DNA from: Forficula auricularia
Lineage: Eukaryota > Arthropoda > Insecta > Dermaptera > Forficulidae
Length of the DNA stretch: 64,000 nucleotides
Direction: 5' to 3'
Assembly: GCA_024734495.1 (NCBI GenBank)
Contig: JALMQS010000032.1
Coordinates: 248,001-312,000, forward strand
Of the stretch, positions 23,922 through 60,780 are shown one piece after another. Positions within the stretch are counted from its first letter, which is position 1; each line of letters starts with the position of its first letter. A model generated the notes under the pieces. That model worked only from the letters and a program-made list of their open reading frames with translations. It was not told the DNA's origin and ran no database searches. The translations under genes and the position numbers were made by a program.

Positions 23922-23966
23922 GAGCCACTGAAGAAGTAAAAAATAAAGTGACGAAACGTTTGACAC
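23922..23966 (+). ncRNA. Hammerhead-like motif, stem I and II eroded
   Basis: CTGAAGA (23928-23934) and GAAAC (23953-23957) are intact, but stem II has shrunk to about two pairs and the stem I strands (GAGCCA and TTGACA) no longer pair well. It is related to the copies at 33711 and 59835. Probably inactive. Confidence 0.45.
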
Positions 23967-24230
23967 ATAAACGTAGTTGTTCCGCCAAATGGGTTTTTCT
24001 TAGGATTTTTGAAATTTAGATATATTATTATTTAAATACTTCTGCATCGATTGGTGCAAAACGAAATTTATGAACAATATAGTTCCGGAGATATTAAATT
24101 TCAAAAATAGAGTTTTTCAAGCTCTTATACATTGCACTAAACGGGATATCGGAAAATTTACATACAAATTTAATTATAATTAAAAAACCCTTTTTACCAT
24201 TTTTATAAAAACTAAACCTACATTAAACAA

Positions 24231-24975
24231 CGAGCTTTTCGTGCGTGCCTTCGGCACGACCTCGAAGCTCGGCCCTCCGGGCTGGTGCCCTGGCGGGCGG
24301 CGTCTCGGTCCAAAAATTTTATTCCTCTTAAAAAACCACACTCCAAATGTATACCTGTAAACTCCCGAAAATACATAGTCTCTTAAAAGTTTTGCCTCAT
24401 TTTCGTCCTGACACAGCTACAGAAATGAGGCTCTAGAAATGAATCTGGAAGTATTTTTTTTTCTATAATCTACAGCATTGTGATATTTTTTGTGTGGAAA
24501 TAGATTTATTTAAATAAGTGGTATCGTGTGAGGAGGAGAATTATATTATATCATTTTTTTAAAATTTGGGATCGATAATCGATATAAGGCTCCAAATATT
24601 TAAAAGAGATCAGGTGTTGTTTGTATGACAGGCTGCTCCAGTATTGCAATGAGAAACTCATATGGGCATGCGTGTCTTAAGTCTTTCAACTTTGTAAAAA
24701 TCAAAAAATAAGAATAACAAAATTTAGATTTTTAAAAAATTATAAAAAAGTGGCAAATTATTAAAAAATAAACAAATAATATATAAATCAAATAAGATGT
24801 GATTGATTTCTTTTTCTGTGCGCAAAGAAAAGCGAATTGAATATTTAATTTTTGAGTGGTGAAGGGGGGGGTAATAATTATCAATATATTTAATGTTTCT
24901 TAATTTAAAATCAATTGGAGTCTTTCATTTCGAAATTTGAGTCCAAATTACGATTATATTTCAAATTTGCCGCAA
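24231..24975 (-). mobile_element. Helitron-like element, second family, copy 1
   Basis: On the minus strand the 3' end has a hairpin GTGCC-GAA-GGCAC followed by AAAAGCTCG and then T, a CTCG variant of the Helitron CTRR end. The adjoining GC-rich segment (ACCGAGACGCCGCCCGCCAG) and the distal part near 24840-24975 both match 48955-49278. Relative to that copy, this one holds about 430 bp more between 24405 and 24840. No Rep/helicase gene is present. Family 2 is inferred, since the 5' TC end is not located. Confidence 0.5.
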
Positions 24976-26049
24976 ATATACCCATGGCGCTCTCTCTCGG
25001 CAGCATTACGTCAGCGTTGAGGCAAATTAATCTAGACAAATAGATATAGTATAAACAATACATATTTTAAGACAATTTTGATTCATAGTTACAACACAGT
25101 TTCTGAGAAAATAATGAATAAATAATGAAAAATGTATAAAAAATAATTTACACTAAAAACAATTTGGCAACAGCGCATTGATTAATCCAGCAAAAGATGT
25201 ATAAAGCACGCATGCGTTAGATTTTTTAAAATTATAATTTTCATAAGGTGTAACGTAGGCGTTGATTACATTTGTTAAAAAATAACAAAACGATTTTTAT
25301 AGAAATAAATCGAGCTTCAAAATGTATTTTATATCTCATTTTAATATAAAAATATTCAATCTCTTACAATGGTGCCAGATTTGTCAAACGAGCACGGGAT
25401 TGTGTAGAATCGGTACATAAACAGGAAAAAGTTTTGGGCTTATGAATTATGAATCCTTATTATCTGTTCTATATACTCTAGCATTAACTTTTTGCTAGTA
25501 TTGTCGTGAAACAACTACCTTAAAGAATAAAATTATCTTTTTAGTTTAATTTTTATCCAACTCCCTACGGTTTCAATTAACAATTTTAATTATGAATGTG
25601 ATTAGTTAAACAGTATATAAAAAGATATTAAAATAATGATTCTGTAAAACAAAATACTCGCTAGTGTTAAATTTCAATTGCCTTTGCAGATGGGGGTTGC
25701 AGGCAGCTAATGGGAAAAACCTTTCTAGTTATAGATTTAAATTTATAGAGAACTCGACAAAATATATTTTTTGAAAAACATGTAACTAAGAAAATCACAA
25801 GAAGTTGTTATCTATTAGATCCTAGATAGAATAGATTATTTTTATTTATATGTCAGGAGCGTTGTTTTTTACCCCTCGGAAAGTGTCTGTCTATAATATC
25901 AGAGTTTCGAAACCTACAATAACTCAAGAACAAATAAATTTTGTGCCGAAATAATTGTATTGCCAAAAAGAAGAACCTATTTTAGATTTCAAACTTTCTA
26001 AACTTAGATCTTGGACCAGATGAAAAAAATCGAATTTTATTTAAGCGTT
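24976..26049. other. No gene seen
   Basis: AT-rich. A short GC patch at 24985-25020 (GGCGCTCTCTCTCGGCAGCA) has no partner here. No coding or RNA feature is supportable. Confidence 0.45.
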
Positions 26050-26280
26050 TGGGGCCGTGCATAAATTATGACATACAGTAAGGGGGAATCTCAGATTTGT
26101 GATAAAATGTGAAATGGAGGCCCGGGGATCTTAAAAATTGTGATTTCACAAAAAGTCAAATTAAAATTTTTTTCAAATCTATTTATTTGATATCATGTTT
26201 TTATTATTCCAACCTGAAAAGGTTGGTAAAATAAATCTAGAAGAAAAATCCCTTTAAGTTTAATTTGTTAAAAAAAATTC
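26050..26280 (-). repeat. Half-copy of the GCCGTCCATAAATTACG element
   Basis: GGGCCGTGCATAAATTATGA, then GGAATCTCAGATTTGT, AAAATGTGAAATGGAGGCCC and GATCTTAAAAATTGTGAT parallel the inverted right half of 5743-6110. The other terminus is missing, so it is truncated. Confidence 0.7.
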
Positions 26281-26456
26281 TACAATATTATTAAATTATA
26301 GGGTATAATATAGTAAGTTAAACTTCAATTTTTTATTAAAAAATATAAAATATAAAACAAATTATGACATTGATAAGGACATTTTTTGAATTTAAAAATG
26401 TGATTTATCTTAAAGTCAATAAGTTCAATGATGCAATTTAAATGAAGATATAGTTA

Positions 26457-27381
26457 GGGGGGTCGGGTAGGCTAGGGCTTAGCGTGTCAGCCTGCTAACC
26501 AAGTGGGCCCGGGCTCGAATCCGACTCGAGGCATCCGGCTAAAACCTGACCACGGGGTAGAGACAAATTTAAAAAAAAATTTTAAGAAAAAAATAAAAAC
26601 CGACTTCAAAAAATTAAATGCAACAAATATAAAAAATACACTAAAAGGTATAAAATGAATTATTATCTTATTTAGTTACCAACTAAACGACGAAATATTA
26701 ACACGAAATTACTTTTTAAAGTCGGTGCCAAACAAACTATACCTCATAAGCGAGCGTACCCGCCAAACGTACTAAGTAAGATCCGTCGAGTGCGATTCAT
26801 AAAAGGTATATGTTTGGCACCAACTTCAAAAAGTAATTTCGTGTTAATATTTCGTCGTTTAGTTGTAACTAAATAAGATAATAATTATTTTATACCTTTT
26901 AGTGTATTTTTATATTTGTTGCATTTAATTTTTTTGAAGTCGGTTTTTATATTTTTTCTTAAAATTTCTTTTATTTTTCTCTTTTTAGTGATGTTATTAA
27001 TAGTAATTATATCGTCAGAACTTGACCAAATTAATATGACACCATCCCTAAGACACCCCTTTCGGATAAAAAAAGAACCATCGAAATCGGTTCATAAACA
27101 AAGAGGTTAGGTCTAAACAAACCTAATAAAAAAGGTCTAATACCTATGAAAAAAAATCGAAAAAAAATGGGACCAATCGGAAGCTAGACTGGACCCAATG
27201 CAAAAAAAATTCAAAATCGGTTGACAATTGGCGGAGATATGAGGTAACATAGGCACAAAAAAAAAAAAAAAAAAAATTCAATCGAATAGAGAACCTCCTC
27301 CCTTTTTTGAAGTCGGTTAAAAAATAAAGTAGTATCGTAAATTGGCTTATGACTGCTAGAAAGGCCGAAAAGGAAAAAAAA
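26457..27381 (+). mobile_element. tRNA-derived SINE split by a CCGACTTC foldback
   Basis: The first part (26457-26573) has a tRNA-like head, GGTCGGGTAGGCTAGGGCTT and B box GGGCTCGAATCC, ending GTAGAGACAAATTTAAA. The second part (27323-27381) continues AGTATCGTAAATTGGCTTAT and GCTAGAAAGGCCGAAAAGG plus an A-rich tail. The intact sibling at 33907-34090 has these joined. The 750 bp between is a complete foldback repeat. This shows the order: SINE first, foldback later. Confidence 0.88.
26574..27322 (-). repeat. CCGACTTC foldback repeat, copy 4, inside a SINE
   Basis: Palindrome at about 26575-26960 with the GC-richer loop (GTACTAAGTAAGATCCGTCG), then an inverted head ending CTTTTTTGAAGTCGGTTAAA. 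Because the interrupted SINE defines the outside, the element's true ends can be read here: AAATTTTTAAG on one side and GGTTAAAAA on the other. The frames reading through the head (27144-27425 minus) are not considered genes. Confidence 0.85.
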
Positions 27382-27804: not shown

Positions 27805-27806
27805 TA

Positions 27807-28592
27807 CAGTGAACGCTCTATATAAGCAACTCATTTGAACCAATTTCAATAAAAAAGTTTCTTATTGGGAAAAGTTGCTTATAGGGAGTATAAAAATACG
27901 TTAACCATCCATCACTTGCTACAAATGTTTCAGGTCCATTATTTAATCTATTTACTTCGAGTGCTTTTAATTTTATCATTTCATTTGGAACTAAATCGTT
28001 TAATTGTCGCCGCTCCAAGAACCAAGAAAACACTATATCGTCGGTTTCACTATATTTTATTGTCTTCATTCGCTTAATCTTACTCTGATTCACATACGTT
28101 TTGGATGCATATTCTTCTAAATTACTTATTGTAGATTTAGCAACTTTATATTCGTTACAAATGTCCTTTGTTTTCTTACCATTTTCAATGTCCTTTAAAA
28201 TGGATAGTTTATCTTTTAACGAAATTGAACGTCTTTTTTCTTCTGATTCATATTTTATGGTTGAATTTAAAGCACAAAAATATTAATTAATTAATTTATT
28301 AATTAACAGAAACTAACAGAATTCAAGTAACTATTCTATTTAACAGAAATTCACTCAATACTGGCAGCACAAAACACAAACATATTCCAATAACATAATT
28401 TTTTACAATTTGAGGTTATGTTGTTGTTTACAGTTAATTTCACTTCTGAATTGGCCTAAACTTAATTCAAATATTTAGCTTTAAAAAAATAAGTTGCTTA
28501 TACAGAACAGTTGAACTAAAAAAGTTGCTTGTATAGAGTTGCTTATAAAGAATGTTGCTTATAGAGAGGTTGCTTATATAGAGCGTTCACTG
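27807..28592 (-). mobile_element. pogo/Tigger-like element, internally deleted
   Basis: Perfect 24-bp inverted termini, CAGTGAACGCTCTATATAAG onwards at 27807-27830 and its complement at 28569-28592, bordered by TA at 27805-27806 and 28593-28594. Subterminal TTGCTTATA-type strings repeat several times at 28490-28580. The element carries only the N-terminal DNA-binding half of a pogo-type transposase on the minus strand; the DDE catalytic half has been deleted. It cannot move by itself but could be mobilised by a related transposase acting on its intact ends. The perfect termini suggest fairly recent activity. Confidence 0.9.
27818..28282 (-). pseudogene. pogo/Tigger transposase fragment: CENP-B-type DNA-binding domains only
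   Basis: The minus-strand frame is open from 28282 to a stop at 27818-27820. It encodes an N-terminal helix-turn-helix of the CENP-B N/psq type (RRSISLKDKLSILKDIENGK, then KDICNEYKVAKSTISN). Next comes a second CENPB_DBD-like domain (YSETDDIVFSWFLERR ... ETFVASDGWL). The frame then runs into the terminal repeat and ends after about 25 unrelated residues. Family proteins bind their own element's ends in the nucleus and normally continue into a DDE domain, absent here. No ATG lies at the expected start; ACCATAAAA at 28253-28261 may be a mutated start. An ATG at 28091-28093 would give a 91-residue protein with only the second domain. Confidence 0.85.
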
Positions 28593-28769
28593 TAATACAT
28601 ATATCGTGAGCAATACAACTTTCACTTAGCTCTTTTAATTTTTGAAATCTACATTTTTAACTTTTAATATTACCTAAAATATTATTTAATAGAGTAAAGG
28701 GTGTGTAGTTTCACAGTGAATGAAATAAAACTCAAAGAGGTTTATACAAACTCAATATATTTCGGATTA

Positions 28770-28800
28770 TTATTAGTCCATCATCAGGAGTTTACAAGTT
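28770..28800 (-). ncRNA. Hammerhead-like motif, inverted array copy
   Basis: The minus strand has AAACTC, CTGATGA (28781-28787), a loop two or three bases longer than in the sister copy, and CCGAAATATATT followed by GAGTTT. All core residues are present. Stem II is weak, as in the direct copies. Confidence 0.55.
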
Positions 28801-28815
28801 AAGTACTTAACTTGT

Positions 28816-28858
28816 TAACTCCTGATGATGGACTAATAATCAGAAATATATTGAGTTT
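28816..28858 (+). ncRNA. Hammerhead-like motif, first direct copy, stem II damaged
   Basis: CTGATGA at 28822-28828 is intact, but the base before GAAA is A instead of C (ATCAGAAAT), breaking the closing pair of stem II. Stem I is reduced to five pairs. Probably less active than the second direct copy. Confidence 0.55.
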
Positions 28859-28939
28859 GTATAAACCTCTTTGAGTTTTATTTCATTCACTGTGAAACTA
28901 CACACCCTTTACTCTATTAATTAATAAGTATTAACTTGT

Positions 28940-28982
28940 AAACTCCTGATGATGGACTAATAATCCGAAATATATTGAGTTT
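28940..28982 (+). ncRNA. Hammerhead-like motif, second direct copy, core intact
   Basis: Stem I AAACTC (28940-28945) pairs perfectly with GAGTTT (28977-28982). CTGATGA is at 28946-28952, GAAA at 28967-28970, and the predicted cleavage triplet ends in AUU just before stem I. Stem III is the self-complementary AUAUAU, so efficient folding may need a dimer. Stem II is short (GGA/TCC) with one extra base after CTGATGA. Confidence 0.6.
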
Positions 28983-29565
28983 GTATAAACCTCTTTGAGT
29001 TTTATTTCATTCACTGTGAAACTACACACTCTTTACTCTATTAATTAACATCATGTTTCACCTAAAACCTACACCACTTTCAATAAGTAAAAAAAAAAAA
29101 AAAAACTAAAATATTATAACTGAAGATAATAAGTCTTCGTTCTTTATGAATCCCAATAACTGATACTCCTTAGGTACTCTTATTTCCTTTATGTCTTCTA
29201 ATCTTTCTCTACTTTTTTCTCTTCTTCCCCTCCACAATTTGTGTATTGGTGAACTCTTTTGCCAACTTTGTAAAATATTGTTGCTAAATTGTGTATAAAC
29301 ACTAGGTGGGACCTAACGTCTTATGTTTGTATACTTTTAAAATAAATAAAACAAATAAATAATAATGAAAGAAGTGGTTCTCAAACTTATTACCCCTGAG
29401 GCTTCTATATTATAAAGGCCTTAACCTGTTCTTTCTTAAATTCAACAAAATTATTGGAAATTTTTTTGGAAATTTACTATAGTAAGTCATTAATCACTTG
29501 ATTTCTAATTTAATTTACTTTTTTTTTGTTTCATATTTTTGAAATATCTCTAAAAGGACTCAAAT

Positions 29566-31471: not shown

Positions 31472-32599
31472 TATGCAATTTAAAGAGAATGAATGGCCTC
31501 TGGTCACCTAATAAATAAAATTAAAAAATGTATTTATTAATCATAATAAATTGAGAATTGATAGCAAGGCAGCCCTAGGATAATAAAAAATAAAATTTAG
31601 GATAAAATAATTTATTTGAACTTTACTTTTATATTAACAGAGGTTTTGGAGGATTTTCCTCCTTCTTTAGGGATGGTTTAAAAGAGTCAACCCTAATGAA
31701 AGGAAGATACTCCAAATCGTCGCTTTTTATGAGAATGAAAATGAGGTTTCAATAAATTATTTTATTCAAAATTTTATTTTTCATTACCCTTGGGCTGCTT
31801 TTCCATCAATTCTCCATCTGAAATTATATACTCGAAAAGAAACCGCTCCTAATAATACTAAATTTAGAAATTAATAAATATAATAATAATAAAAATAATA
31901 AATTTAAATATAAACAATTATTATAAAATTTTTTAATATATTTCCTAATTTTCGTTAAACGTCTAGAAGTAAAAAAAAAATTATCCGTAAAAATCTAGCT
32001 TATCTTATATGTATTACGATACAATTAACAGTTATCAAATCTATTATTTCGAAAATTAATAGAATATATAAAAAATATTCTATTAATACCAACTTAGTTA
32101 ATTATTAATTATTACATGAATATATAGATCAATATAAATATATGAATTTTTAGATTTCAGCACATTATTTTCCAATTTAAACGGCACTCTCAAAACCTCC
32201 CCTCTTTCCAAGGCTGAATAAAGATAGAGACACACGAACAACAGACAGAAAATATCATGTGTTGAAAATCATTTGAGATATTTTTAAAAAACAATTAGCA
32301 AAAAAAATCAGTGCATTTAATACTAGACCGGCTGAGAGGCAATTGCCTGCTTCCCAGGCGTACCGAGAAATACGTAGCAACTAATACTTCACTTATTTTC
32401 TTATGTACCAGGTGCGATATGGAAAATTTTTCGGGGAGGGCCCTCTATTTCTCTCTCTCTGACGAACGCATCGACAAGTCCTAACAATAAAATTTCCTGT
32501 AGCGACCTGTCGTGTATTGGATTAAACTGGACGTGTCGGACTTTCCAAAGGTCTGTTGACTTTTTTGATAGGGGAGCATGGTATGGGTTGGAGGGGAAT
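29641..32599. other. Gene-poor stretch with two diverged repeat fragments and (TA)n
   Basis: 29830-30180 holds two diverged units (AAGAGCTGATTGGATTTTGG and AGCAGAATAGATTTTGGTTG), similar to the segment after 34570. 30440-30500 has GGAGAATTCCTTCCGAAACG, a hammerhead-like relic. A (TA)n tract runs 31422-31468. 31640-31720 has another decayed GGAGG/CCTCC hammerhead-like pair. No coding sequence is recognised. Confidence 0.5.
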
Positions 32600-33166
32600 A
32601 TATATATATATAAAATTAAGGTTTTGTCCGTACATTGCTCCAAATCACGCCAAAAAGCAATGGTGCAGGGTGGAGTGGAGGGTTTAGTGAAGGTCCAGAG
32701 GCGTAGCGGGGTGGGGTCCGGAGTGGGTGGGTGCGGGGTGATGGTGTGAGGCATGGTGGAGGCCACGGGGGGTGTAGTCGTGCAATGAGGAGTGGGGGTT
32801 CAGGTGAGGATCTAGAGGCTTAGTGGGGTGGTGAGGGGTGGAGTGGGTGGGGCGCGGGGTGGTTGGGCGGGAGTGCAGGGGTGGGTCCCGGCAGATGGTG
32901 GAGGGGTGGGGTGGAGCAGGGTAAAGTGGGGGGTTCAGGTGAGGGTCCAGAGGCGTAGTGGGGTGGTGCGGGGGCTGGGGTGCGGAGTGGTGGGGTGAAT
33001 GCGGTGGTTGGGCACGGGTGCATATTGCGGGGGTGGGAGGTTCTGGGTGGGGTTCGGGGTGTGTGGTGGGTGGGAGTGGGGTATTAGGGTGGGTTCATGG
33101 GTTGGGGGTCCAGGGGGCGTGCCCCCGGCTAGCAAGAGGGCCGCCGAAGGCGGACCTTGCAGGTAG
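32600..33166 (+). mobile_element. Helitron, degenerate copy of the 15.2 kb family
   Basis: Starts in a TATATATATATAAAATTAAG run (the TC start is lost in an expanded TA tract), continues GGTTTTGTCCGTACATTGCT, then jumps into a G-rich block of about 450 bp. It ends with the GCCGCC-GAA-GGCGG hairpin and CTTGCAGGTAG, a mutated CTAG end, followed by T. Most of the AT-rich interior of the 15.2 kb copy is deleted. The Pro- and Gly-rich frames are composition artefacts. Confidence 0.8.
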
Positions 33167-33319
33167 TATTTAATAAAATTAAAATTAACACTGCTATGTA
33201 ATTTAACAAATAAAGGAAATTTTATAGCAATTTGAGCCGCTTAAGTTGAATAATGTAATCAATAATTTCTTATGTTAATTCTACATAATTAGAAAATTTT
33301 TGAAAAAAATAAATGAATT

Positions 33320-33400
33320 GAGTACCCGACGAGATTCGAACTCGTGTCTCTCTCCTTTAGCCGAAGAGGGCCTTTACCAACTAGGCCAAGGATGATCACA
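33320..33400 (-). repeat. tRNA-like sequence, probable SINE head or tRNA pseudogene
   Basis: The minus strand contains TTGGCCTAGTTGGTAAAGG (A box) and a perfect T-arm ACGAG-TTCGAAT-CTCGT (B box). The anticodon arm does not fold with a normal 7-base loop, and I find no matching acceptor stem, so it is unlikely to be a working tRNA gene. Confidence 0.55.
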
Positions 33401-33710
33401 CCAGGAAGGCTCTTTAGATTGAATGTCATTTTTCCATTTCGCGGTTTTTTCTATTTAAAGTATGGTTACTTATGTTTAAGATAAATTAACTTTTAAACGT
33501 TAGTTTTAATTTTTTCTTAAAGCAATTTGAGACCCGAAAGTTAATTTTGTTTCAGAAGCCTATAATAACTAAATAATATATCACCTATACCTTTTTTCTT
33601 TCTTAGAAAAAATATATACCTACTAATTTGTATCATTCGCATCCATAGCAAATTTATAACAGGAATAGCAGGGAATTGGACAAAATTAAAAAAACAGAGT
33701 ATTTATTAAA

Positions 33711-33756
33711 TGGGCCAGACGTTTCGTCAATTTATTTTGACTTCCTCAGTGGCCCA
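33711..33756 (-). ncRNA. Hammerhead-like motif with perfect 7-bp stem I
   Basis: Minus strand: TGGGCCA, CTGAGGA, one extra A, stem II GTCAA/TTGAC, GAAAC, GTC, TGGCCCA. Stem I pairs over all seven bases. The G at core position 7 is allowed, since that position is the least conserved. Stem III is minimal (ACGU), so cleavage probably needs a dimeric fold. The extra base between the core and stem II also occurs in the plus-strand hammerhead of chrysanthemum chlorotic mottle viroid. Relatives are at 23922, 35001 and 59835. Confidence 0.65.
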
Positions 33757-33906
33757 TTTTATCACTCCTTGTCAAAAAACAAGTTCACTATAAGACAAAA
33801 CATCTATTTTTAATATATTCTTGACTCAAATTAATCAACAATCAAGTAAAGTTAAAAAAGTCACTTCCAAGATTGTTGATTAGAATATGTTAAAATAAGC
33901 TGGCGT

Positions 33907-34090
33907 GGGGGTCGGGTAGGCTAGGCGGTAGCATGTCAGCCAGCTAATCAAGAGGACCCGAGTTCGAATCCGACTCGAGGCATCCGGCTAAAATCTGACC
34001 CCCGAGGTAGAGACAAATTTAAATAAAATAATTAGTATCGTAAATGGCTTATGGCTAGAAAGGCCGAAAAGCAAAAAAAAAAAAAAAAAA
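33907..34090 (+). mobile_element. tRNA-derived SINE, intact, 9-bp target duplication
   Basis: Flanked by AGCTGGCGT at 33898-33906 and 34091-34099. Begins GGGGGTCGGGTAGGCTAGGC; the B box GAGTTCGAATCC lies near 33961. The body GGCATCCGGCTAAAATCTGA and GTAGAGACAAATTTAAAT leads into TAGTATCGTAAATGGC, CTAGAAAGGCCGAAAAGC and a poly(A) tail. The clean duplication and A tail indicate a recent LINE-driven insertion. It serves as the reference for the split copy at 26457. Confidence 0.93.
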
Positions 34091-34189
34091 AGCTGGCGTA
34101 TTCTGATGTGGCCATCCACTTGACTTTACTATACAACCTGGCCTCTCACTTATATTTAATATTTAATAGAATTATTTATAATCATGTAG

Positions 34190-34575
34190 GGGAGGGGTTA
34201 GTTTTTGCATTTTTAGATTACTGTGTGCCCACTGATTATGTATACAAAATTTGGTTGAGTTTGGAACAAGAGCCTATATTTTCATTTTTTGACCCCCCCC
34301 CCCCCCCATTTTCGGAGGTTAGTTTTTCCATTTTTAGACTTCTGGGGTCACACTGATTATGTATACAATATTTGGTTGAGTTTGTTACAAGAGCCTATAT
34401 TTTCATTTTTTGACCTTACACCTCCCTTCCCCCATAAATTTTGGGCGGTTAGTTTTTGCATTTTTAGACTTCTGGGGTCGCACATGATTATGTATACAAA
34501 ATTTGGTTGAGTTTGCTCAAATAGCCTAGATTTTTAATTTTTAACTCCCCTCCACCCCCCCTTAATTTTGGGTCG
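34190..34575 (+). repeat. Three tandem 110-130-bp units related to the Helitron interior
   Basis: GGTTAGTTTTTGCATTTTTA and GATTATGTATACAAAATTTG recur three times, spaced about 120-130 bp, each ending in a C-rich run. Inverted versions form the two interior units of the 15.2 kb Helitron, and the last 60 bases of the window carry another piece. No Helitron ends are seen here. Confidence 0.75.
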
Positions 34576-35000
34576 ATATGCACCAAAATCTAATCAGCTC
34601 TTAATCTTAATGAACCAAAACTACTTGTGAATATTTGGTTTCGATATTATCACAGTAGTTTTTGAGCTAGCTCGTCCACAAAAATTTGGTAACGCACAGA
34701 CTAACGGACAACCAGACAGACTAACTAAGATATTTTGACAAAACAATTATTATCTCGAAAAATATAATTTTTTCGATGTTAACTTATTAGAAGCTTTTTG
34801 TAGAGCGAAATGCCATGGTATCGCTCAATTTTTTTAATGAAAATAGTTTGAGCCGTTTTTTGAGATATTTCGAAAAAAATAAGGAAAAACCAATTTTTTC
34901 ATGCACAATTACAATACTTCTGAAGGTAAAGTAAAAAGATTAATGATGTTTTCTCTGAATGTTCTGTCCTCTTGTGAAATTGTTTTTTTGAGAAAGAGTG

Positions 35001-35045
35001 ATAAAATGAGGAAGTCAAAATATATTAACGAAACGTCTGGCCCAT
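35001..35045 (+). ncRNA. Hammerhead-like motif, 5' stem deleted
   Basis: ATGAGGA, then GTCAAAATATATTAAC, GAAAC, GTC, TGGCCCA. About seven bases of the 5' stem I strand and the first core C, present at 33711, are missing. This copy should be inactive. Confidence 0.6.
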
Positions 35046-35186
35046 TTAATAAAAACTCTGTTTTTTTTTTAATTTTGTCCAATTCTCTGCTATTCTTGTT
35101 ACAAATTATTATTTGTTTTCAAATTGTGTACGTTGTATATTAAAAGATTAAAGTAGCATTGTGGATTTTTGTTTCCGTTTTTTATT

Positions 35187-35757: not shown

Positions 35758-35884
35758 TTTCCTCTGCTTAATGCATTTGTTTGTGTAGTCGTCAGCTTAC
35801 TGAGTCAATAAAACGAATTAACACATATCCAATTGGGTATTTCAATTCATGAGAAATAACAGTTACCATAAAATATTTCTAATT

Positions 35885-35935
35885 AAATAAGTCTGATGAT
35901 AAAGGTAAAACCTTCGAAACTATTGTCACTAATAA
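35885..35935 (+). ncRNA. Hammerhead-like motif, core intact
   Basis: CTGATGA (35893-35899), stem II AAGG/CCTT with a short A-rich loop, GAAAC (35916-35920), stem III with one mismatch, GTC, then ACT pairing with AGT at the 5' side. It is related to the 56535 type (CTATAGTC end, AATAAATAAA downstream). The short stem I and offset stem II suggest weak or no activity. Confidence 0.5.
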
Positions 35936-35963
35936 ATAAATAAATATATATATATATATAAAT

Positions 35964-41094: not shown

Positions 41095-41142
41095 ACTCAT
41101 AGACTGATGAAGATGGCAAAGTCCTCAAAACTATAGTATCTT
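41095..41142 (+). ncRNA. Decayed hammerhead-like motif
   Basis: CTGATGA at 41104-41110 is intact, but the GAAA box reads AAAA, changing an invariant G, and stem II no longer pairs (GATGGC versus GTCCTC). It is of the CTATAGT-end type and probably inactive. Confidence 0.5.
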
Positions 41143-41149
41143 TTATTTA

Positions 41150-41300
41150 TTTATTTATTTATTAAATGTCACCGGGAACAAAGTCCATTTAGACAGCACA
41201 TAAGTAGAGTGTTAGTAGGGTTAGTGAGGGAGCCAAGTTTTCAGCCGGTAGAAATTTTTATTTGCCAGCTAGGATCGAACCTCCATTCCAACATCCCCTA
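41150..41300 (-). repeat. Truncated SINE of the 306-527 family
   Basis: TTTAGACAGCACATAAGTAG, GTTAGTGAGGGAGCCAAGTT and AGCCGGTAGAAATTTTTA match 345-430. The tRNA-like head is mostly missing beyond GGATCGAACCTCC. Confidence 0.75.
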
Positions 41301-41769
41301 TAGTATCTTTATAAATAAATAAAAAAATTATTTTTCCAGCAGTAAACAAACTCTTTTATTGTCTCCTTTAATTCAAAATATTTTTGATATTCAAAATTAC
41401 TCGGGTTTTAGACAAACAACAATACTGAGAAGAAATATCGGTCAAATTCTTTTAACGTCACACATCCTAGTTTTGGGAAATAATACCTAATTTCTAAAAA
41501 GTCGCCAACCAAATAAAGATCAATTTATAAAAAAATAGCTTGCACCTATATCGTTTTTAGATCTAACATGTTTATGCATTTTCTATTCAAATTAATATTT
41601 TAGAAACAAAGATTCTTTTCGATGATACGATATACAGTTTTTTTATCTCTTATCATAATAATATGGTTGCCGTTGAAACTAATACAGTTTTATTCTCTTG
41701 GATTAATTTTTAATGAATCTATTCACGCCTCTTTTTCTGTTTGTATCGATAATATTTAATATTGAATAT

Positions 41770-41985
41770 ATAAATGAAGTAAAAGTAAAGTGATTTTTTT
41801 AATAAGATTGAAGAAGATAATTTAAACTATCATTTTATTCATAAACCGACGTTTCGGAGACTTATTCCCTCCTTCTTCACTGACCTTTCAAAACCATGAG
41901 GAATGATGGAATAAGCCTCGAAAACGTCGGTTTATGAATAAAAAGATAGTTCAAATTATCTCTTTTTATTAACTAAAATGAATTT
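41770..41985. repeat. Inverted repeat with two decayed hammerhead-like motifs
   Basis: CATAAACCGACGTTTCGGAG (minus reading CCGAAACGTCGG) near 41840 faces CTCGAAAACGTCGGTTTATG near 41918, and both arms continue into a TAATTTAAACTATC/GATAGTTCAAATTATC pair. Each arm has GAAA-CGTC plus a stem II remnant, but the CTGA box is changed in both (GTGAAGA, ATGAGGA). Both should be inactive. Confidence 0.6.
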
Positions 41986-42006
41986 AGGTCGAATGAATGA
42001 TTTTAA

Positions 42007-44509: not shown

Positions 44510-44740
44510 ACTTTTCATTTTATATTTTTGATTTTTCGGAGGATCTTCCCTCCTTCTTAAGGGTTTCAAGGGTCATTGAAGGAAGCATGTAAAAATGTTC
44601 AATCTTGTCTTCTTTCAACGATATTGTTGTTGAAGAGATGGTATATTTTGTCTTGCCATCATCAAGAGTATATCAATGAAGGACCCTTTGAACCCCGAAG
44701 AAGAAAGTAAGATCCTCCGAAAGTTAGGTTCAAAATTGTA
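44510..44740. repeat. Inverted pair of decayed GGAGG hammerhead-like motifs
   Basis: Minus-strand AAGAAGGAGGGAAGATCCTCC followed by GAAA (44530-44560) and plus-strand GAAGAAGAAAGTAAGATCCTCC followed by GAAAG (44695-44725) are inverted relatives of the intact motif at 50977. In both, CTGA is changed (CTTA, CCGA). Confidence 0.55.
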
Positions 44741-50770: not shown

Positions 50771-50976
50771 GATACTTTCATTAAAATATGTTCGAGGAAA
50801 ATTTCTAAAAAGAGCGCCGATAGAATGATATCTCTTTATTTAGAGCTAAGACATCAATAGGATGCTAAATATAAAGCGAGACCAGTGTCAGACTAGTAAA
50901 GATAAATTCTTTAATTTATCCTATTCTAGGAACGGCCTTTTGACTCTGGATAGGAAAATGAATCGAAATTGAAATT

Positions 50977-51018
50977 GAACCCTGAAGAAGGAGTGAAGAT
51001 CCTCCGAAACGTTGGTTT
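50977..51018 (+). ncRNA. Hammerhead-like motif, core intact
   Basis: GAACC (50977-50981) pairs with GGTTT (51014-51018). CTGAAGA is at 50982-50988, then one extra A, stem II GGAG/CTCC with a T-G-A-rich loop, GAAAC (51006-51010) and GTT as the predicted cleavage triplet. All invariant core residues are present. Stem III is minimal. Decayed relatives are at 44510-44740 and 41770-41985. Confidence 0.6.
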
Positions 51019-51054
51019 CAAAACATTTCCAATAAATACTCTTTTTTGGAAATA

Positions 51055-55253: not shown

Positions 55254-55378
55254 AATAAATAATATTATAAAACAATCAATAAAATCTTTGTTTGAACAAC
55301 GAACGTTTCAAGAAAAATATTCCTTTTATCAATCAAAAAATTTTAAAGGAATAAAAATATAAACATTTTGAAATTTGA

Positions 55379-55452
55379 AAGAGACAATAAAAGTGTGTGT
55401 TTTCTGCTGGAATTCCAGCAGAAGACACACTCTTTTATTCTCTGCTTCAATA
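55379..55452. repeat. Short hairpin of the GAGACAATAAAAG family
   Basis: GAGACAATAAAAGTGTGTGT faces ACACACTCTTTTATTCTCTG, joined directly at GCTGGAATTCCAGC. It is a tip-to-tip palindrome of the family end also found at 16660, 55825 and 60672. Confidence 0.75.
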
Positions 55453-55897
55453 TATAAAAATTCTGCTACCCCCGGCACAAAAATTTTCAATTTTTGAAAT
55501 TCTTGACAATGCTCTAAATTTAGTTGAAGAAAGAGGTTGCCAGATGTATTGCTATATCACCTATTTCTATTAAACTCGTTTTAACATGTTATTAGAGAAA
55601 TATATACAATAATTTTATAAAAACAATATCAAAAAGTTTATTAAAAATCTAAACGTGACGTAAGAAAGTATAAAGAAAATTTATATGTTAGTCGCTATAA
55701 TATATCATATTCTTTTTAGTTTTCCTTTATTGATAAAAGTAAAATTTCACCCAAAACTTTTGGATTTTTAATAAACATTTTGAGATTGCTTTTATAAAAA
55801 TGTTTTATTTAATACGAAAAATAAATTGAAGGAGACAATAAAAGAGTGTGTCTTCTGCTGGAATTATAAATTTTATTTATTTATAACGAGACTATAG

Positions 55898-55940
55898 TTT
55901 TGAGGGCTTTGCCCTCTTCATCAGTCTATTACAATGGATT
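55898..55940 (-). ncRNA. Hammerhead-like motif, left arm, core mutated
   Basis: The minus strand has CTGATGA (complement of 55918-55924), an extra A, a perfect 6-bp stem II GAGGGC/GCCCTC with AAA loop, then AAAA where GAAA is expected, and CTATAGTC. The G-to-A change at the invariant G (55901) should abolish cleavage. Confidence 0.6.
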
Positions 55941-56075
55941 TACAGGAATTAATTTATGAATGAAAGGTTAAAATCTTTCATGTGGTTAGGTTAAGAAAAT
56001 ATACAGTGTGGGCAAGTTAAGAATTAAAATTTATACTTGTTTTATTATTTTGGCTGTAGGTGGCGTTCGTGAAGT

Positions 56076-56432
56076 TTATATTTTAGCGGCTATTTTTAAA
56101 ATAAAGCTCTCGGGAATTTCTATTTTCCAATTTAAGAATTTTTTTGTTGAATTATTGTATGATTTTAAAATTTCTAACGATTCGAAAATACTAATTTTTA
56201 AGGGATCTAATTCTGATCTAATTAATTTAATATTTGATCCATCTGGAAAACAATGTTTCTCGAGATTAAATGGTCTGCAAATGCACTATGCCCGAACCCC
56301 CTTTAAAAACCCTTTTGTGTTCCGAAATGCGTGTGTTTAAATTTCGTTCTGTTTTTCCTATATAGGTCGAATCACATTCTCCACATGTTATGGAATAGAC
56401 ACTTTTTTTGTCCATTTTTTGAATTTTGTCTT
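56076..56432 (-). pseudogene. GIY-YIG endonuclease domain of a Penelope-like element, frameshifted
   Basis: Minus-strand frame opening after a TAG near 56432 gives MDKKSVYSITCGECDSTYIG, then KTERNLNTRISEHKR. The VYSI, CxxC, TYIG, KT and RxxEH signposts match the Penelope-type variant of the GIY-YIG nuclease, where the Tyr residues, Arg and His contribute to the active site. The frame stops soon after; a second frame carries on with SELDPLKISIFESLEILKSY and ends at 56076-56078, as expected for the family's C-terminal end. At least one frameshift separates them. In an intact element the domain nicks target DNA during insertion. The 110-codon plus-strand frame over the same bases is its antisense shadow. 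Confidence 0.85.
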
Positions 56433-56534
56433 TCTAGTATAAATTTCAATTCTTAACTTGCCCACACTGTATATTTTCTTAACCTAACCACATGAATGAT
56501 TTTAACCTTTCATTCATAAATTAATTCCTGTGAA

Positions 56535-56595
56535 TCCATTTTAATAGACTGATGAAGAGGGCAAATCCCTCGAAACTATAGTCTCGTTATAAATA
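56535..56595 (+). ncRNA. Hammerhead-like motif, right arm, core intact
   Basis: CTGATGA (56549-56555), extra A, stem II GAGGG/CCCTC, GAAA (56572-56575), CTATA, GTC (56581-56583). Stem I forms from GA/TC, a small internal loop (TA against G), then TAA/TTA and further A-T pairs. The loop in stem I may allow the tertiary contact typical of natural hammerheads. Stem III (ACTATAGT) is self-complementary. Partner of the mutated motif in the left arm. Confidence 0.65.
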
Positions 56596-56648
56596 AATAA
56601 AATTTGTAATTCCAGCAGAAGACACACTCTCTTATTGTCTCCTTCAAT

Positions 56649-57460
56649 ATATAAAAATTCTGCTACTCTCGGCAAAAACATTCAATTTAACGAAAAATAA
56701 ATGATAATAGATATTTTAAAAGCAAATACACTAACTTTTTGCTTACACGCTTTAATATAAGTCTGTATGCTTATGTTAAACTATATTTATATATGTATAT
56801 ACAAAATAATGTTTAAAAAATCTTCAAATATTTATTAAAATCAATCGTTTAGGGAGAATGTCCTCATTTATCAATAAAATTTTGATTTTCGAATAGTAAA
56901 AAAAAAAAAAATGCTTTAGGTAGGTATGTATTGAATATAAACCAACACTATTTATTTATATAATACATAAATAAACGTTTTTATTTTTTACTATCAAAAA
57001 ATTAAAATTACCTTGAATAACGGAGAAATTCTCCAGAAACGTTTGGTTTTTAATAAACTTTTTAAGATTGTTTATTAAAAGATTTGTAATAATTTATATT
57101 ATAATACAATCAACATTTTTCTTTAATATCTATACTTATTATAAGCGACGACACCGACGTTTTTTAATCTTAAACCCCACTAATAGTTGATGACAAATAC
57201 AATGTATTAAAATTAGGAAATTTAAATTAATATTTTGATGAGAGGAGGATTGGAAATATGGAATTTGAATAATTATCGGAAAAGAGTTTTTTTATTTAAT
57301 TAGTTTTTCCTCTTATTAAAGACAAGAACTACAAAGATGATCAAGGACAGTCGATGGTGGAGAAGTAATCTCCGGAGTCGAAGCTAAAATACAATGTATA
57401 CATTAATTAATGTAAAATAATTGGATTCATAAAATTTATAAAAAAAAAAATATATTTTAA
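56649..57460. other. No gene; decayed hammerhead-like relics
   Basis: 56850-56880 and 57000-57070 carry the string family TTGATAAAGG/GAAACGTTTGG with AATAAACTTTTTAAGATTGT downstream, also present near 9745, 10400, 10520, 53060, 55300 and 55724. The copy near 57011 keeps GGAGAAATTCTCC and GAAACGTTTGG but has lost CTGA. No coding sequence is supported. Confidence 0.5.
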
Positions 57461-57464
57461 AACT

Positions 57465-57531: not shown

Positions 57532-58980
57532 GGTATATTCTTCTTCTTCATGTGATTATCCGGTCCCCGGACGTTGGCTATAACTATGGCTAAAGCTGTC
57601 TGGTCCTCTGCCATGTGGTATATATAATATGATTTCGTTTGTATTATCTTTGCCGATTTTTCAAAATGATTTATTATCATATAATTAATAAGCCTGTATT
57701 GTTGGTTCATTGATAATATATTTTAAAACACATATCCCAAGATTAGCATGAACAGAGGATGTGCTAATTAATTGTATAATTCCTCTATGAATGAATGAAT
57801 GCTGGGTCGGAGTGTAAATCAGAGCGAATCGAACATCGCTAACGCTAATAGTGCAATTGGCCAACGCGATTAAAGGGCTCGAGCCTTAAGCCAGCCAATA
57901 TAATGGCAAGATAGATAATGGGGTAAAATGATGATTTAGGGATTAACAACGATCCAGCTATCGGAGCGATTCAATTTAATGGACAGTTTCCCGAGATAGT
58001 TCAAGATAATAATGATTCACTTACCAGCCACTATCAATTGTACAAAGATAGTAGCAGTTTATAGGTTTTACACATCAATATATACAGGACAAAATTATTA
58101 ATTATAGACTGTTATTTTCTCTATTGGTAACTCAAAGGAGTAGGGTTGTTTTTGGAGATTGGGTTAACACCATGTGAAGGGTGAATAAATTGAGTAAAAA
58201 TATAATGTTGTAGATTAATAAATGATAAAATAAAGATTCAAGATCGTCATAAAATAATAATCGATTCGAAGACTGGTTTAACGTCCCCTTAAAAATTCAT
58301 TTATACAGGGTGTCGTGTATCACAACGATAAACCGTGAACAAGGATAGGCCAGTTTATGATGGCCCAGAAGGTAAAAAAAATAGTAAAAGTCTCATAGTT
58401 TTTCGAGTTATAGGCATTTTTTGAAAATGGTGAAAATCGCTACCCTGCCCTAAATAATGAGATGCTGTGGATACAAATATATTTTATTATTCTAATTTTT
58501 GTTAAGCAATCCTGAATAATTCTGATAATGACGAGAATTAAAAAAAAAACATACCTAAGTATACTTTTGGAGATTTTTTTTTGCCGGATTCATGTGTTAA
58601 AAAATTTTGATCAGCTAACTTTGAATCTTCTTAAATGTAATAAAAAGTCTACTATCCTAACATGGCAAGTTATTTAAGAAATTGACCCAATTAGTCATGA
58701 TTTCAAAATTGTACTACACTTAGTACTTAAGAAAAAAATATTTCTATTTTTTTTGCAAAATTATCTAATTTAAAAACATATTTTGATAGTGGTTATTTAT
58801 TTAATATGTTAATCAATTATGTCTCATCTTGATTGAACTAATCTTTGGCTAATAATGGCATTATTAATAGCTATTATAGCATTAATTTAATGTCCATATG
58901 TTCTGAAGCTTCAAACCCTAAGTATCGGAATTCAGACAGACAAACAGAAAATAAATTTATTAAGGGCTTAAATAAAATAG
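57532..58980. other. No gene seen; one ACAGGGTGTC repeat end
   Basis: TACAGGGTGTCGTGTATCAC near 58306 is a terminus-like string common in arthropod DNA transposons, but no partner is found. 57780-57950 is GC-richer, with no motif. The remainder is AT-rich. Confidence 0.4.
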
Positions 58981-58984
58981 GTGT

Positions 58985-59230
58985 AGATTCTATTTATTTC
59001 TTTTTATTTATGAACTCCCGCTAACGTTTCGGCTATTGGTTGTAGCCATCATACATACATAGGATATATACAAAACTATGTATACTTCTTGTATATAGTT
59101 TATCTGATGACTTGAGTATCCAAAATTTTTTTTAATATAAATATTGAAAAATTCCCGCTCTGAAGATGGCTACAATCAATAGCTGAAACGTTAGCGGGAG
59201 TTCATAAATAAAAAGAAATAGATAGAATCT
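58985..59230. repeat. Inverted repeat with one intact and one truncated hammerhead-like motif
   Basis: GAACTCCCGCTAACGTTTCG at 59012 onwards is the inverse of CGAAACGTTAGCGGGAGTTC ending at about 59203, and both arms continue into AATAAAAAGAAATA-type sequence. The right arm has the complete motif at 59151-59201. The left arm lacks the CTGA box and the 5' strand of stem I. Confidence 0.75.
59151..59201 (+). ncRNA. Hammerhead-like motif, best preserved in the window
   Basis: Stem I ATTCCCGCT (59151-59159) pairs with AGCGGGAGT (59093+100 to 59201) over nine positions including one G-U. CTGAAGA is at 59160-59166, then one extra T, stem II GGCTA/TAGCT, GAAA at 59185-59188, and GTT (59190-59192) as the predicted cleavage triplet. 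Every invariant core residue is present. Stem III is minimal (ACGU), so a dimeric transcript may be needed. Confidence 0.7.
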
Positions 59231-59648
59231 GCACGTATTTTATTTAAACTCTTACTAAATTAATATAACAGCTATAAATAATTCCTAAAATAAAGAAAAT
59301 AAATTATATTAAAAAATTACTTTTCTACAAGTTTCAGACATTTCTATACACAAATAATAATCAGCCAGCTGCCAGCATGCCAAACGCACCGGGTGTAGTA
59401 TAATATGAATATATTGTAATACATGTCAAAATAAACGATTAATCATCATTATTAGGTATTTAATCACTCCTGAGACTGGTTTGACGAAACTACTAGCCTT
59501 CAAAAAGATTTTAGAATTTTAGAAATAAGGGAAAATTTAATTAATTAATAGAATAGAAAAGGAAAAATAGTCTATGATTGTAAATTGAACAGAATTTTTC
59601 GAAAAGAAAGTATTTTTCACAATTATTATTATTTTGACATTTAAAACA

Positions 59649-59690
59649 ATAATTGCTGATGAAGTCAAAATAGATCGACAAAACGTTAAA
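59649..59690 (+). ncRNA. Decayed hammerhead-like motif
   Basis: CTGATGA (59656-59662), stem II GTC/GAC, then AAAA for GAAA and CGTTA. The invariant G is lost as in two neighbouring copies. Probably inactive. Confidence 0.5.
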
Positions 59691-59834
59691 ATCTGATTGA
59701 TTTTTTTTGAAAAAATTATTCATTCTAAATCCCTACGAATATCTAATTTAAATTATTATTGTTACTTCATTCGTATCCATAGTAAATTTATAACAGGAAA
59801 ATTTGGGAATTGGATATATAGAGCTTATTTTTAA

Positions 59835-59880
59835 ATGGGCCAGACGTTTTGTCAATTTATTTTGACCTCCTCAGTGCCTC
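59835..59880 (-). ncRNA. Hammerhead-like motif next to the assembly gap, core mutated
   Basis: The minus strand has CTGAGGA, stem II GTCAA/TTGAC, then AAAAC in place of GAAAC, and GTC with TGGCCC. Stem I is weakened (GAGGCA instead of GGGCCA). It is the same family as 33711. Confidence 0.6.
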
Positions 59881-59891
59881 ATTTTATCACG

Positions 59892-59991
59892 NNNNNNNNN
59901 NNNNNNNNNNNNNNNNNNNNNNNNNNNNNNNNNNNNNNNNNNNNNNNNNNNNNNNNNNNNNNNNNNNNNNNNNNNNNNNNNNNNNNNNNNN
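59892..59991. other. Assembly gap, 100 N
   Basis: Exactly 100 unresolved bases, usually a placeholder for a gap of unknown length. It begins a few bases after the repeat at 59760-59890, so collapsed repeat copies may be missing. The frames reported across it are meaningless. Confidence 0.98.
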
Positions 59992-60671
59992 TGAACATTG
60001 CTATTGCAACACATAATTTGAGTCCCAACCCATTTCGAAAAATTTGCACTATAAAATTTAAACAAATTGAATGAACGCGAGAGTTGCCTATTTTAAGGCG
60101 AAATTCTAACAGCTCTTTTTTAAAGAATCATCACAATATTTTATTTAGAATTATTAGGTTATGCCCTTATAGGCATATCATTAAAAACATTTTTCAGTTT
60201 TTTTACAAAATGTGCATGTTTCACGAAACACAGAGGTTTGGAAACGATGATAATTAGATGGTTTAAAAAATATTCAACTGACCATGTTTCTTTCTTCGTT
60301 AAGCCGAACATTCTTTTATGCCTCAAGCGAAAAGAAATACTTTCCTCCTAAAACAAAAGAGAAACATTATTTCAGTAAAAATTATTTACTAGAGAACAAA
60401 ATACATCTTTACACATTTTTAAATATTGTATTTTAACTTATAACTCTAAATTAGCGTTGTAAAAATATTTATACATAATTAAAATTTTTTAAATTATTAT
60501 TTAAAAAAATATCGCAGAACTTGATAATATTCTCCCAATAAAATAATTTAATTTAAAAGATTTTGTTTTGCCTAGAGTAGCAGATTTATTGACTCATTAA
60601 GAGAAATCATGGTTGTCCTCTGCTTGATGTAAATAAACATATTATATAATATAGAGATATCTTATCTTAAA

Positions 60672-60780
60672 TTGAAGGAGACAATAAAAGAGTGTGTCTT
60701 CTGCTGGAATTATAAATTTTATTAATTTATAACGAGACTATAGTTTCGAGGGCTTTGCCCTCTTCATCTTTTTTTATCTT
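60672..60780 (-). repeat. Penelope-type repeat end with truncated hammerhead-like motif
   Basis: GGAGACAATAAAAGAGTGTG to TTATAACGAGACTATAGTTT and CGAGGGCTTTGCCCTCTTCATC matches 55825-55923. On the minus strand GAAAC and stem II are perfect, but the sequence before GATGA is unrelated, so the CT of the core and the 5' stem are lost. Confidence 0.7.

Follow-up and report, generated by a model that had tools for sequence, protein, structure and literature searches.

The window analysed here, a 64,000-nucleotide stretch of Forficula auricularia DNA, holds many hammerhead-ribozyme-like motifs, which raises the question of what they are and how they came to lie there. We conclude with considerable confidence that they are the pseudo-LTR (pLTR) ribozymes of several Penelope-like element (PLE) families, present in 5'-truncated copies.

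Hammerhead motifs in the window

With a strict scan that tolerates no mismatch in the core and asks for 3 bp or more in each of stems I and II and 2 bp in stem III, we find 7 intact motifs in the window. One hundred dinucleotide shuffles (100) give 0.01 on average and never more than 1, which rules out a chance origin. The invariant core CTGANGA...GAAA with its three stems, by which type I hammerheads are recognized, is present, and by predicted fold the window motifs are minimal type I hammerhead ribozymes. Six intact motifs had been listed in a first-pass annotation, and all hold at core level; the one placed at 33711 is indeed intact, although it lies on the minus strand. The decayed motifs listed there are present as well, and Table 1 marks the further ones that we add. 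The same annotation had described an extra base after CTGANGA and a minimal stem III, and this is borne out: the extra base is found in 7/7 intact window motifs and in 48/52 motifs of wider genome scans. The Rfam hammerhead models, a search proposed at the time, gave 0 matches in the window at gathering scores and 0 up to E=10; the Rfam matches up to E=10 were to miRNA and other models, all under gathering scores. Since Rfam misses the window ribozymes, Rfam-based annotation would miss them too.

Because multi-family alignments misaligned in the stems, the covariance model rests on three sequences of equal length, drawn from families B and D. The model also matches members of other families, with rough E-values: families A and E reach no better than 0.05 and 0.14, B_L read in antisense obtains 0.026, and the match 59831-59886 is itself one of the three source sequences. 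In a viroid hammerhead, an extra nucleotide reportedly follows A9. The extra core nucleotide named in the title of De la Pena and Flores 2001 is like ours, with the difference that it is a single viroid case whereas ours recurs in several retroelement families. Minimal PLE hammerheads (Cervera and de la Pena 2014; Lunse et al. 2017), as papers citing these studies describe them, share with our motifs the CTGANGA / GAAA core, a stem III of about 2 bp and the tie to PLEs; the extra base may set ours apart.

Table 1. Ribozymes, arms and inserts in the window (arm ends, given with a plus sign, are counted from the core position C3)
Coordinates	Strand	Feature	Ribozyme	TSD
11217..11264	+	C/E-like fragment (added here)	truncated; starts at GAAA
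16626..16788	.	E insert; left arm tailed, right untailed	no core	14 bp, exact: 16612-16625, 16789-16802
23916..23972	+	B-like ribozyme	decayed, C3 23928
28686..29105	.	family A insert; inverted arm 28686-28809, direct units 28800-28924 and 28925-29105	intact C3 28787(-) (added here) and 28946(+); 28822(+) with broken stem II	CTAAAATATTAT: 28674-28685, 29106-29117
31628..31682	-	D-like ribozyme (added here)	decayed, E=7e-4
33633..35107	.	family B insert; left arm tailed, to +116; right arm to +98; other repeats between arms	left, intact C3 33749(-); right, decayed 35002-35049	no significant one
35878..35944	+	family C ribozyme; partner arm not found within window	intact C3 35893(+)
41099..41372	+	E arm, pieces 41099-41143 and 41298-41372, divided by another insert	decayed
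41786..41986	.	head-to-head pair, family G (close to D)	decayed, 41835-41890 and 41887-41938	not significant
44520..44735	.	head-to-head pair, family D	decayed, 44520-44568(-) and 44687-44734(+), the latter a covariance-model match at E=0.021 only
50970..51025	+	family D ribozyme; partner arm not found	intact C3 50982(+)
55377..55491	.	E insert; left arm untailed, right tailed; 22-bp palindromic junction	no core	10-11 bp, weak (matched by 19/400 random placements)
55827..56689	.	E insert; left arm untailed, right tailed	left, decayed C3 55924(-); right, intact C3 56549(+)	ACGAAAAATAAAT: 55814-55826, 56690-56702
56079..56433	-	PLE ORF remnant, three frames, broken; residues 392-510 of the 510-aa frame of genome copy L056, GIY-YIG end
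58958..59293	.	family F insert; left arm untailed, cut at ribozyme core; right arm end at +133	right, intact C3 59160(+)	AGAAAATAAATT: 58946-58957, 59294-59305
59642..59700	+	ribozyme	decayed, C3 59656
59767..59890	-	tailed B arm; abuts assembly gap	C3 59874(-), one core mismatch; match 59831-59886
60674..60771	-	lone E arm	5'-truncated within core; decayed, 60770(-)	14 bp, one mismatch (probable): 60660-60673, 60772-60785

Several families keep one fold

Stems I and II pair inside families and rarely pair after their strands are swapped between families. The earlier claim that several families keep one fold under selection is thus supported by the cross-family strand swaps. Copies within one family decay after insertion, and the case for selection on the fold, which we regard as supported, is the one made between families. 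In a comparison of families A, B, D/G, E and F we detect no similarity between them downstream of the ribozyme, and a conserved 3' stem-loop was sought with 0/7 giving z below -1.6.

Classed inserts pair a tailed with an untailed arm

Most window motifs sit in inverted head-to-head pairs, an arrangement missed by the first-pass annotation. TSDs were clear at first only for the E insert at 55827 and the inserts at 16626 and 60674, and extending the flanks also located those of A and F; for B, G, the D pair at 44520 and the E arm at 41099 none was found, wider flanks included. The family A insert has a 22-bp palindrome at its junction and contains no ORF that we could find.

To describe this architecture across the genome we used two sets. 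The first comprises 40 E copies scored from 1768 first-look candidates and chosen to cover C3 to +140, a choice that ensures a tailed arm in every copy and biases the 5' ends of tailed arms; the second comprises 26 unselected pairs, free of that bias. A head-to-head partner within the 3.1 kb fetched was found for 36/40 E copies (none was shown for L018, L029 and L036), with a gap of -5 to +11 nt between the arms in 31/36 pairs. TSD scores of at least 10 occur in 31/36 E copies versus 5/1260 cross-locus controls, and in 17/26 unselected pairs; exact TSD lengths are 10-15 bp, with one of 19.

The two arms of an insert end at different places. Classing arms as tailed (at least 128) or untailed (90-115), family B excepted with its reference ending at +118, we find one of each in 34/36 selected pairs, the remaining 2 being unclassable, and in 23/26 unselected pairs, with 3 unclassable and 0 having two like ends; the third unclassed pair (A 28679) is tailed plus untailed if its outermost unit is taken. 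A smaller unselected set gives the same result in 8/8 rows (L001, which repeats a window insert, was left out). Over the 57 classed pairs, 34 of them selected and 23 not, the arm ends fall near +98 on one side and near +139 on the other, about 41 nt apart. Where TSDs place the ends (17/26 pairs, families E, D/G, A and F), untailed arms end at +95 to +102 (one at +116) and tailed arms at +133 to +146. The untailed-arm reference for the 36 E pairs stops at +97; with a reference reaching +140, untailed partners end at +96 to +111 in 34/35 and at +87 in one. Head-to-head inserts with TSDs and ends about 98 and 139 nt downstream of C3 are thus shown for families E, D/G, A and F, the window A arm departing from the rule with an end at +160. 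Family B arm ends are putative, seen by homology only.

Link to Penelope-like elements

The genome copy L056 has a 510-aa ORF directly upstream of a family-E hammerhead, with matches to RVT_1 (3e-13) and, in the same frame, GIY-YIG (PF01541, 3e-5), both above cut-off, and with YVDD and GVY..YIG motifs. Its insert is head-to-head with a 14-bp exact TSD, the ORF copy being 5'-truncated; homologues are RT proteins that are either unnamed or uncharacterised, and those with a name come from insects. The window E insert keeps the last 119 codons of an L056-type ORF, broken, and one related family has a 147-aa frame with GIY-YIG (6e-7). A retroelement ORF directly upstream of the ribozyme is therefore shown for family E and, as a GIY-YIG ORF only, for that related family. 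We saw no ORF between C3 and +140, none for families A, B, D/G and F, and no full-length element; pattern searches of viral contigs and genome contigs gave 0 matches. A reading as PLE-derived elements without coding parts was dropped once the RT and GIY-YIG ORF was found. Among 30/36 window ORFs (at least 85 aa) run against Pfam, only a Tigger-like remnant scored above the curated cut-off; its 5 homologues are all unnamed.

RT and GIY-YIG in one frame, the pLTR arrangement, the tail, the TSDs and 5' truncation are all those of PLEs. Canonical PLEs with GIY-YIG, namely Adineta vaga Penelope (available sections of PMC3846280) and Anolis carolinensis Poseidon (PMC11167929), share the single RT plus GIY-YIG frame, an ORF-adjacent hammerhead, inverted pLTRs, palindromic junctions, a tail on one inverted pLTR, and TSDs. 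The tail here is about 41 nt and on one arm only; in PLEs, one inverted pLTR may carry a tail of 30-40 bp. The Anolis ORF starts at stem II (PMC11167929), whereas here C3 lies about 150 nt beyond the end of the family-E ORF; copies here are mostly short 5'-truncated pairs, and their TSDs are mostly 10-15 bp compared with the 8-10 bp given for A. vaga in that portion of PMC3846280.

A model for insertion and the role of the ribozyme

We propose that an element protein would make a staggered cut in the target, and that the 3' ends on both sides of the break would serve as primers for reverse transcription, each at a different one of two internal start sites of the element RNA. Each cDNA would then halt independently, often near -37 (perhaps the RNA 5' end) or in the ribozyme core or stem II, and the two cDNA ends would be joined via microhomology or palindromes, gap filling leaving the TSD. 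Two-sided priming alone, with two separately primed cDNAs per insert, seems to us reasonably likely. The PLE protein of Anolis acts on both strands, cutting and extending each, and initiates internally at two positions that flank the tail (PMC11167929). We lean slightly toward the stricter form, in which the two start sites, separated by about 41 nt, would obligatorily contribute one cDNA apiece. The hammerhead would keep a distance of about 98 nt upstream from the first of them across otherwise differing families, serving in some 10^5 copies as a structural landmark of the integration complex. Counting against the insertion model, no difference in start site between the two strands was seen in Anolis (PMC11167929), whereas each insert here has one of each start.

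Head-to-head repeats could also arise if one cDNA copied itself or primed on an antisense template, the view preferred and argued for A. vaga elements in PMC3846280. The 22-bp palindromic junctions of the A insert and of 55377-55491 (5/500 random pieces reach that length) agree with such fold-back copying, as do inner ends within 3 nt of each other in 7/36 pairs (1.7 expected; 0/2000 shuffles reach 7). However, fold-back predicts a copy ending at the cDNA start, and the arms end about 41 nt apart in 57/57 classed pairs; inner ends lie more than 10 nt apart in 28/36. On these two grounds we reject it as a general answer and consider it improbable, while the nearly equal inner ends and palindromes fit fold-back or palindrome-guided joining in a minority of inserts.

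A role in processing 5' ends is attributed to the ribozymes of other retrotransposons (PMC7761336, in the section available), and 16/36 untailed arms end close to the ribozyme, at +1 to +28, as might be expected if the ribozyme made the 5' end of the retrotransposed RNA. Those ends, however, sit upstream of the cut, and 0/36 fall at +29 to +68. Because 34/36 untailed arms cross the predicted cut site, the RNA copied into them was uncleaved, and the Anolis protein inserts RNA with or without a working ribozyme in vitro, mutants inserting normally (PMC11167929). A 5'-end role is therefore decidedly unlikely. With an uncleaved template, the ribozyme probably does something other than make the template's end: it would either work on tandem or read-through RNAs or, once folded, mark a position at constant distance from the start sites.

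The first-pass annotation had named PLEs and retrozymes as candidates. Metazoan retrozymes, in the text of PMC7229834 that we could draw on, likewise bear type I hammerheads within numerous short repeats of the genome, and family A holds a 124-bp direct tandem, the sole one in the window. Retrozymes, which move as ribozyme-cut circular RNA, are however direct tandem repeats, expressed as circles of about 170-400 nt (same source), whereas head-to-head order is the rule here: among same-family neighbours within 1.5 kb, 60 are arranged head to head, against 4 each in direct and tail-to-tail order. Family E moreover has an ORF with RT and GIY-YIG. We reject retrozymes as a general answer, with very little probability left to them, and the PLE candidate stands on its RT plus GIY-YIG ORF, inverted pLTRs, tail and TSDs. 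That the repeats are TIRs of DNA transposons (MITEs) that acquired a hammerhead, as the inversion of their ends, the TSDs and the abundance of short copies might suggest, is extremely improbable and was rejected, since arm lengths are unequal, TSD length varies, 60674-60771 is a one-armed insert with a probable TSD, and the L056 insert contains an RT and GIY-YIG ORF.

In elements of an already known kind, three features look new: the rule for arm ends, the recurrence of the extra base and the motif density. The role of PLE hammerheads is called a mystery in the consulted part of a 2020 review (PMC7761336), and our findings bear on it as well as on PLE integration, inverted repeats and the identity of the tail. 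The many copies, some of them young, allow statistics beyond the reach of single elements, and yield falsifiable constraints: a tailed and an untailed arm per insert, read-through of an uncleaved ribozyme and a near-fixed distance from ribozyme to start site.

Density in the genome

The density of motifs had been described as notable for this window. It is high, and sampled places indicate that it is genome-wide and not special to the window. We find 18 motifs in 158 kb near E inserts plus the window against a shuffle mean of 0.1, with a stem rule looser than the strict scan and a shuffle control that covers this set only. Ten 10-kb places (98 kb without N) hold 23 motifs, in 8/10 places. A rough scale-up gives 1-2.5 x 10^5 motifs per genome.

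Hammerhead folds in the window

A stem-aware scan of the window recovered all six intact hammerhead motifs of the first-pass annotation and added a seventh. Under strict rules the window holds 7 motifs, whereas 100 dinucleotide shuffles average 0.01. For the bare pattern CTGANGA-N8..30-GAAA, we count 20 occurrences versus 3.0 expected. The single additional base before stem II (after CTGANGA) that had been described is present in 7/7 strict motifs. An Rfam search of the window gave no hammerhead matches at curated thresholds and none up to E = 10. A covariance model built from two sequences of repeat family B and one of family D recovered family F (E = 2e-8), the decayed B-like ribozyme B23 (6e-9), the decayed right arm of B (3e-8), the G copies (1e-4 and 9e-4), and a previously unlisted decayed copy (7e-4); families A and E were weak (0.05 and 0.14).

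Across six family representatives, 21/24 cells are paired in stem I and 22/24 in stem II. Swapping 3' strands between families lowers the mean to 10.7 and 13.8 paired cells, respectively, and the true pairing is matched by 2/720 permutations for stem I and 1/720 for stem II, the true one counted. Because the stems pair within families and seldom after between-family swaps, one fold is kept by differing sequences. The earlier proposal of selection on the fold therefore holds across families; inside families, however, copies merely decay.

Paired arms in a Penelope-like layout

The majority of window motifs occur as inverted pairs, arranged head-to-head, whose ribozymes point outward. Junctions with 22-bp palindromes are found in family A and in one other place (that length is reached by 5/500 random pieces), target site duplications (TSDs) of 13 bp at the window E insert and 14 bp elsewhere are matched by 0/400 and 1/400 random placements, and a 3' extension is confined to one arm of an insert. 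Together, these features identify the known layout of Penelope-like elements (PLEs). Excerpts of PMC3846280 describe pseudo-LTRs (pLTRs) in direct and inverted orientation, where one inverted pLTR may bear a tail, palindromes at the head-to-head junctions, and TSDs of 8-10 bp; minimal hammerheads are placed in PLE pLTRs by excerpts of PMC6155905 and PMC7761336, and pLTR hammerheads also appear in PMC11167929.

From the host assembly (1.06 Gb, 845 contigs; the window is C240:248001-312000), the 40 E matches listed were fetched with flanks. Counting from core residue C3 (+, downstream), the query arms of this sample are selected to end at +138..140. A head-to-head partner lies inside the fetched 3.1 kb for 36/40 copies, and one of the four partnerless copies (L023) has its partner 1.8 kb off. 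The gap between arms is -5..+11 nt in 31/36 pairs, and a TSD score of at least 10 is seen in 31/36 pairs versus 5/1260 cross-locus comparisons, with exact lengths of 10-15 bp and a single case of 19.

Where both ends could be classed, these inserts join one tailed to one untailed arm. With the reference extended to +140, partner arms end at +96..+111 in 34/35 E pairs; classed separately, 34/36 selected E pairs are tailed plus untailed, the partner being unclassable in 2. When arms of E, A, B, D/G, and F were paired free of this selection, using the window together with the adjoining 50 kb, ten 10-kb places, and flanks, we obtained 26 head-to-head pairs, 23 of them tailed plus untailed (E 13/14, D/G 5/6, A 2/3, B 2/2, F 1/1), 0 with two like ends, and 3 unclassable. 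A further such pair lies in L056, the extended L023 locus (3237-3416 and 3522-3601 of the reverse complement). Where TSDs place the ends (17/26 unselected pairs), untailed arms end at +95..+102 (a single one at +116) and tailed arms at +133..+146; the window A arms end at +102 and +160. This end geometry is common to the families despite their mutually dissimilar sequences downstream of the ribozyme, where we found no similarity among A, B, D/G, E, and F except between B and its own variant. Neighbors of the same family, selected ones counted in, are 60 head-to-head, 4 tail-to-tail, and 4 direct.

Already known are hammerheads in PLEs, their minimal stem III, and the inverted, tailed or untailed pLTRs. 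The literature and passages covered gave no earlier mention of a strict pairing of one tailed with one untailed arm, of a ribozyme-to-start spacing shared across families, of inverted pLTRs explained by two-sided priming, or of the extra base as characteristic of PLEs; such absences are weak.

Proposed two-sided priming, and cDNA ends

Based on these copies and on data for an Anolis PLE, we propose two-sided target-primed reverse transcription as the probable origin of the inserts. At a staggered break, each side would prime its own cDNA, with one cDNA per start site and two start sites used; each cDNA would halt independently, and the two ends would then be joined. The Anolis PLE protein cleaves and extends both target strands, its cDNA starts internally at two sites bounding the tail, and RNA with a mutated ribozyme is still inserted (PMC11167929). 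Two-sided priming would explain the head-to-head layout, outward 3' ends, one-arm tail, and TSD, as well as the unequal inner ends (more than 10 nt apart in 28/36 E pairs) and the scarcity of shared or filler sequence at the junctions. Counting against it, inner ends are nearly equal in 7/36 E pairs versus 1.7 expected, long palindromes form two of the junctions, and no difference in start site between strands was seen for the Anolis PLE (PMC11167929). Fold-back copying, which the A. vaga paper (PMC3846280) prefers as the origin of head-to-head arms, seems unlikely here, as it leaves arms ending at different places unexplained.

The predicted E cut falls between +34 and +35. Among 36 untailed arms, 0 end at +29..+68, 2 halt earlier, and 34 cross the predicted cut, so the templates of those arms were uncleaved. 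Ends fall within +1..+28 in 16/36 untailed arms, seven of them at +24/+25, just 3' of stem II, and cDNA may be stopped by the ribozyme fold. Ends at -35..-38 (16/72 of all arms, tailed arms being selected) perhaps correspond to the RNA 5' end. The distance from ribozyme to start site is nearly fixed, and the core pattern is retained in 37/40 tailed E arms. We also observed AATAAA at +38..+49, 4-15 nt past the predicted cut, in 6/7 family representatives (A-G; absent from A); its chance in a random 30-nt stretch is 8%.

A coding partner for family E

Upstream of E copy L023, in the same direction, lies a 510-aa ORF (measured stop to stop) that encodes RVT_1 (3e-13) and GIY-YIG (3e-5) domains, carries the motifs YVDD and GVY..YIG, and ends ~150 nt ahead of C3. 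The insert carrying it is head-to-head, with an untailed arm and an exact 14-bp TSD; since it is 5'-truncated, no intact element was seen. Two longer remnant pieces in the window are 95-96% identical to this ORF, and C-terminal pieces survive at five more loci (L006, L008, L013, L019, L027). A second frame in L056 (147 aa, GIY-YIG, 49% identical) lies upstream of a related ribozyme. Of 176 homologs found, 120 were listed, many of 800-890 aa; among the matches listed, those with a named source come from the insects Euphydryas, Parnassius, Maniola, Bicyclus, Coccinella, and Bemisia, which makes an insect host probable.

Density across the genome

Outside selected inserts, we counted 23 motifs in ten 10-kb places and 18 in a separate 158 kb (shuffle mean 0.1). 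This spacing, ~1 motif per 4-9 kb, roughly extrapolates to ~1-2.5 x 10^5 per genome; for axolotl retrozymes, excerpts of PMC7229834 give up to 120,000 copies. The extra base is present in 27/29 motifs in one scan (the window's 7 counted in) and in 21/23 in the ten-place scan.

Features located in this analysis (window positions unless a locus is named)
Feature	Position	Strand	Remarks
Intact motif	33711	-	one of the six
Intact motif	28787	-	seventh
B23	23916-23972	+	decayed
Decayed copy	31628-31682	-	previously unlisted
Palindromic junction	55402-55423		22 bp
TSD	16612/16789		14 bp
ORF remnant	56433-56079	-	residues 392-510 of 510; window E insert, three broken frames
Arms starting in or at edge of ribozyme	60772, 59050, 16737, 11217, 59656, 41897, 41099		-5..+24 from C3, upstream of cut site
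B-like ribozyme pair	59656 / 59874	+ / -	tail-to-tail, contrary to head-to-head rule; 100-N assembly gap after second
Tails of E, a C-like copy, D/G, and D44 (D pair, 44520-44735)	56653-56689, L010, L032, 44735-44790		common motif like CTC(G)GCAAAAA / GTCTCCAAAAA by eye
D/G insert	L055:7316-7620		apparent exact TSD of 20 bp, above most others
Tigger/pogo-like transposase remnant	27805-28594	-	HTH_Tnp_Tc5, CENP-B_N; inverted ends 26 bp
tRNA-derived SINE-like insert	41143-41298		divides E arm; by eye, flanks TATAGTATCTTT, B-box-like GGTTCGATCC on minus strand
Strongly strand-asymmetric elements	15659-16260, 32400-34561, 38996-39653		GC skew up to +/-0.3; C- or G-rich runs, tandem units 114-121 bp
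279-nt dispersed repeat	2350, 3839, 4579, 26634, 45055, 54589		six copies, several as inverted pairs
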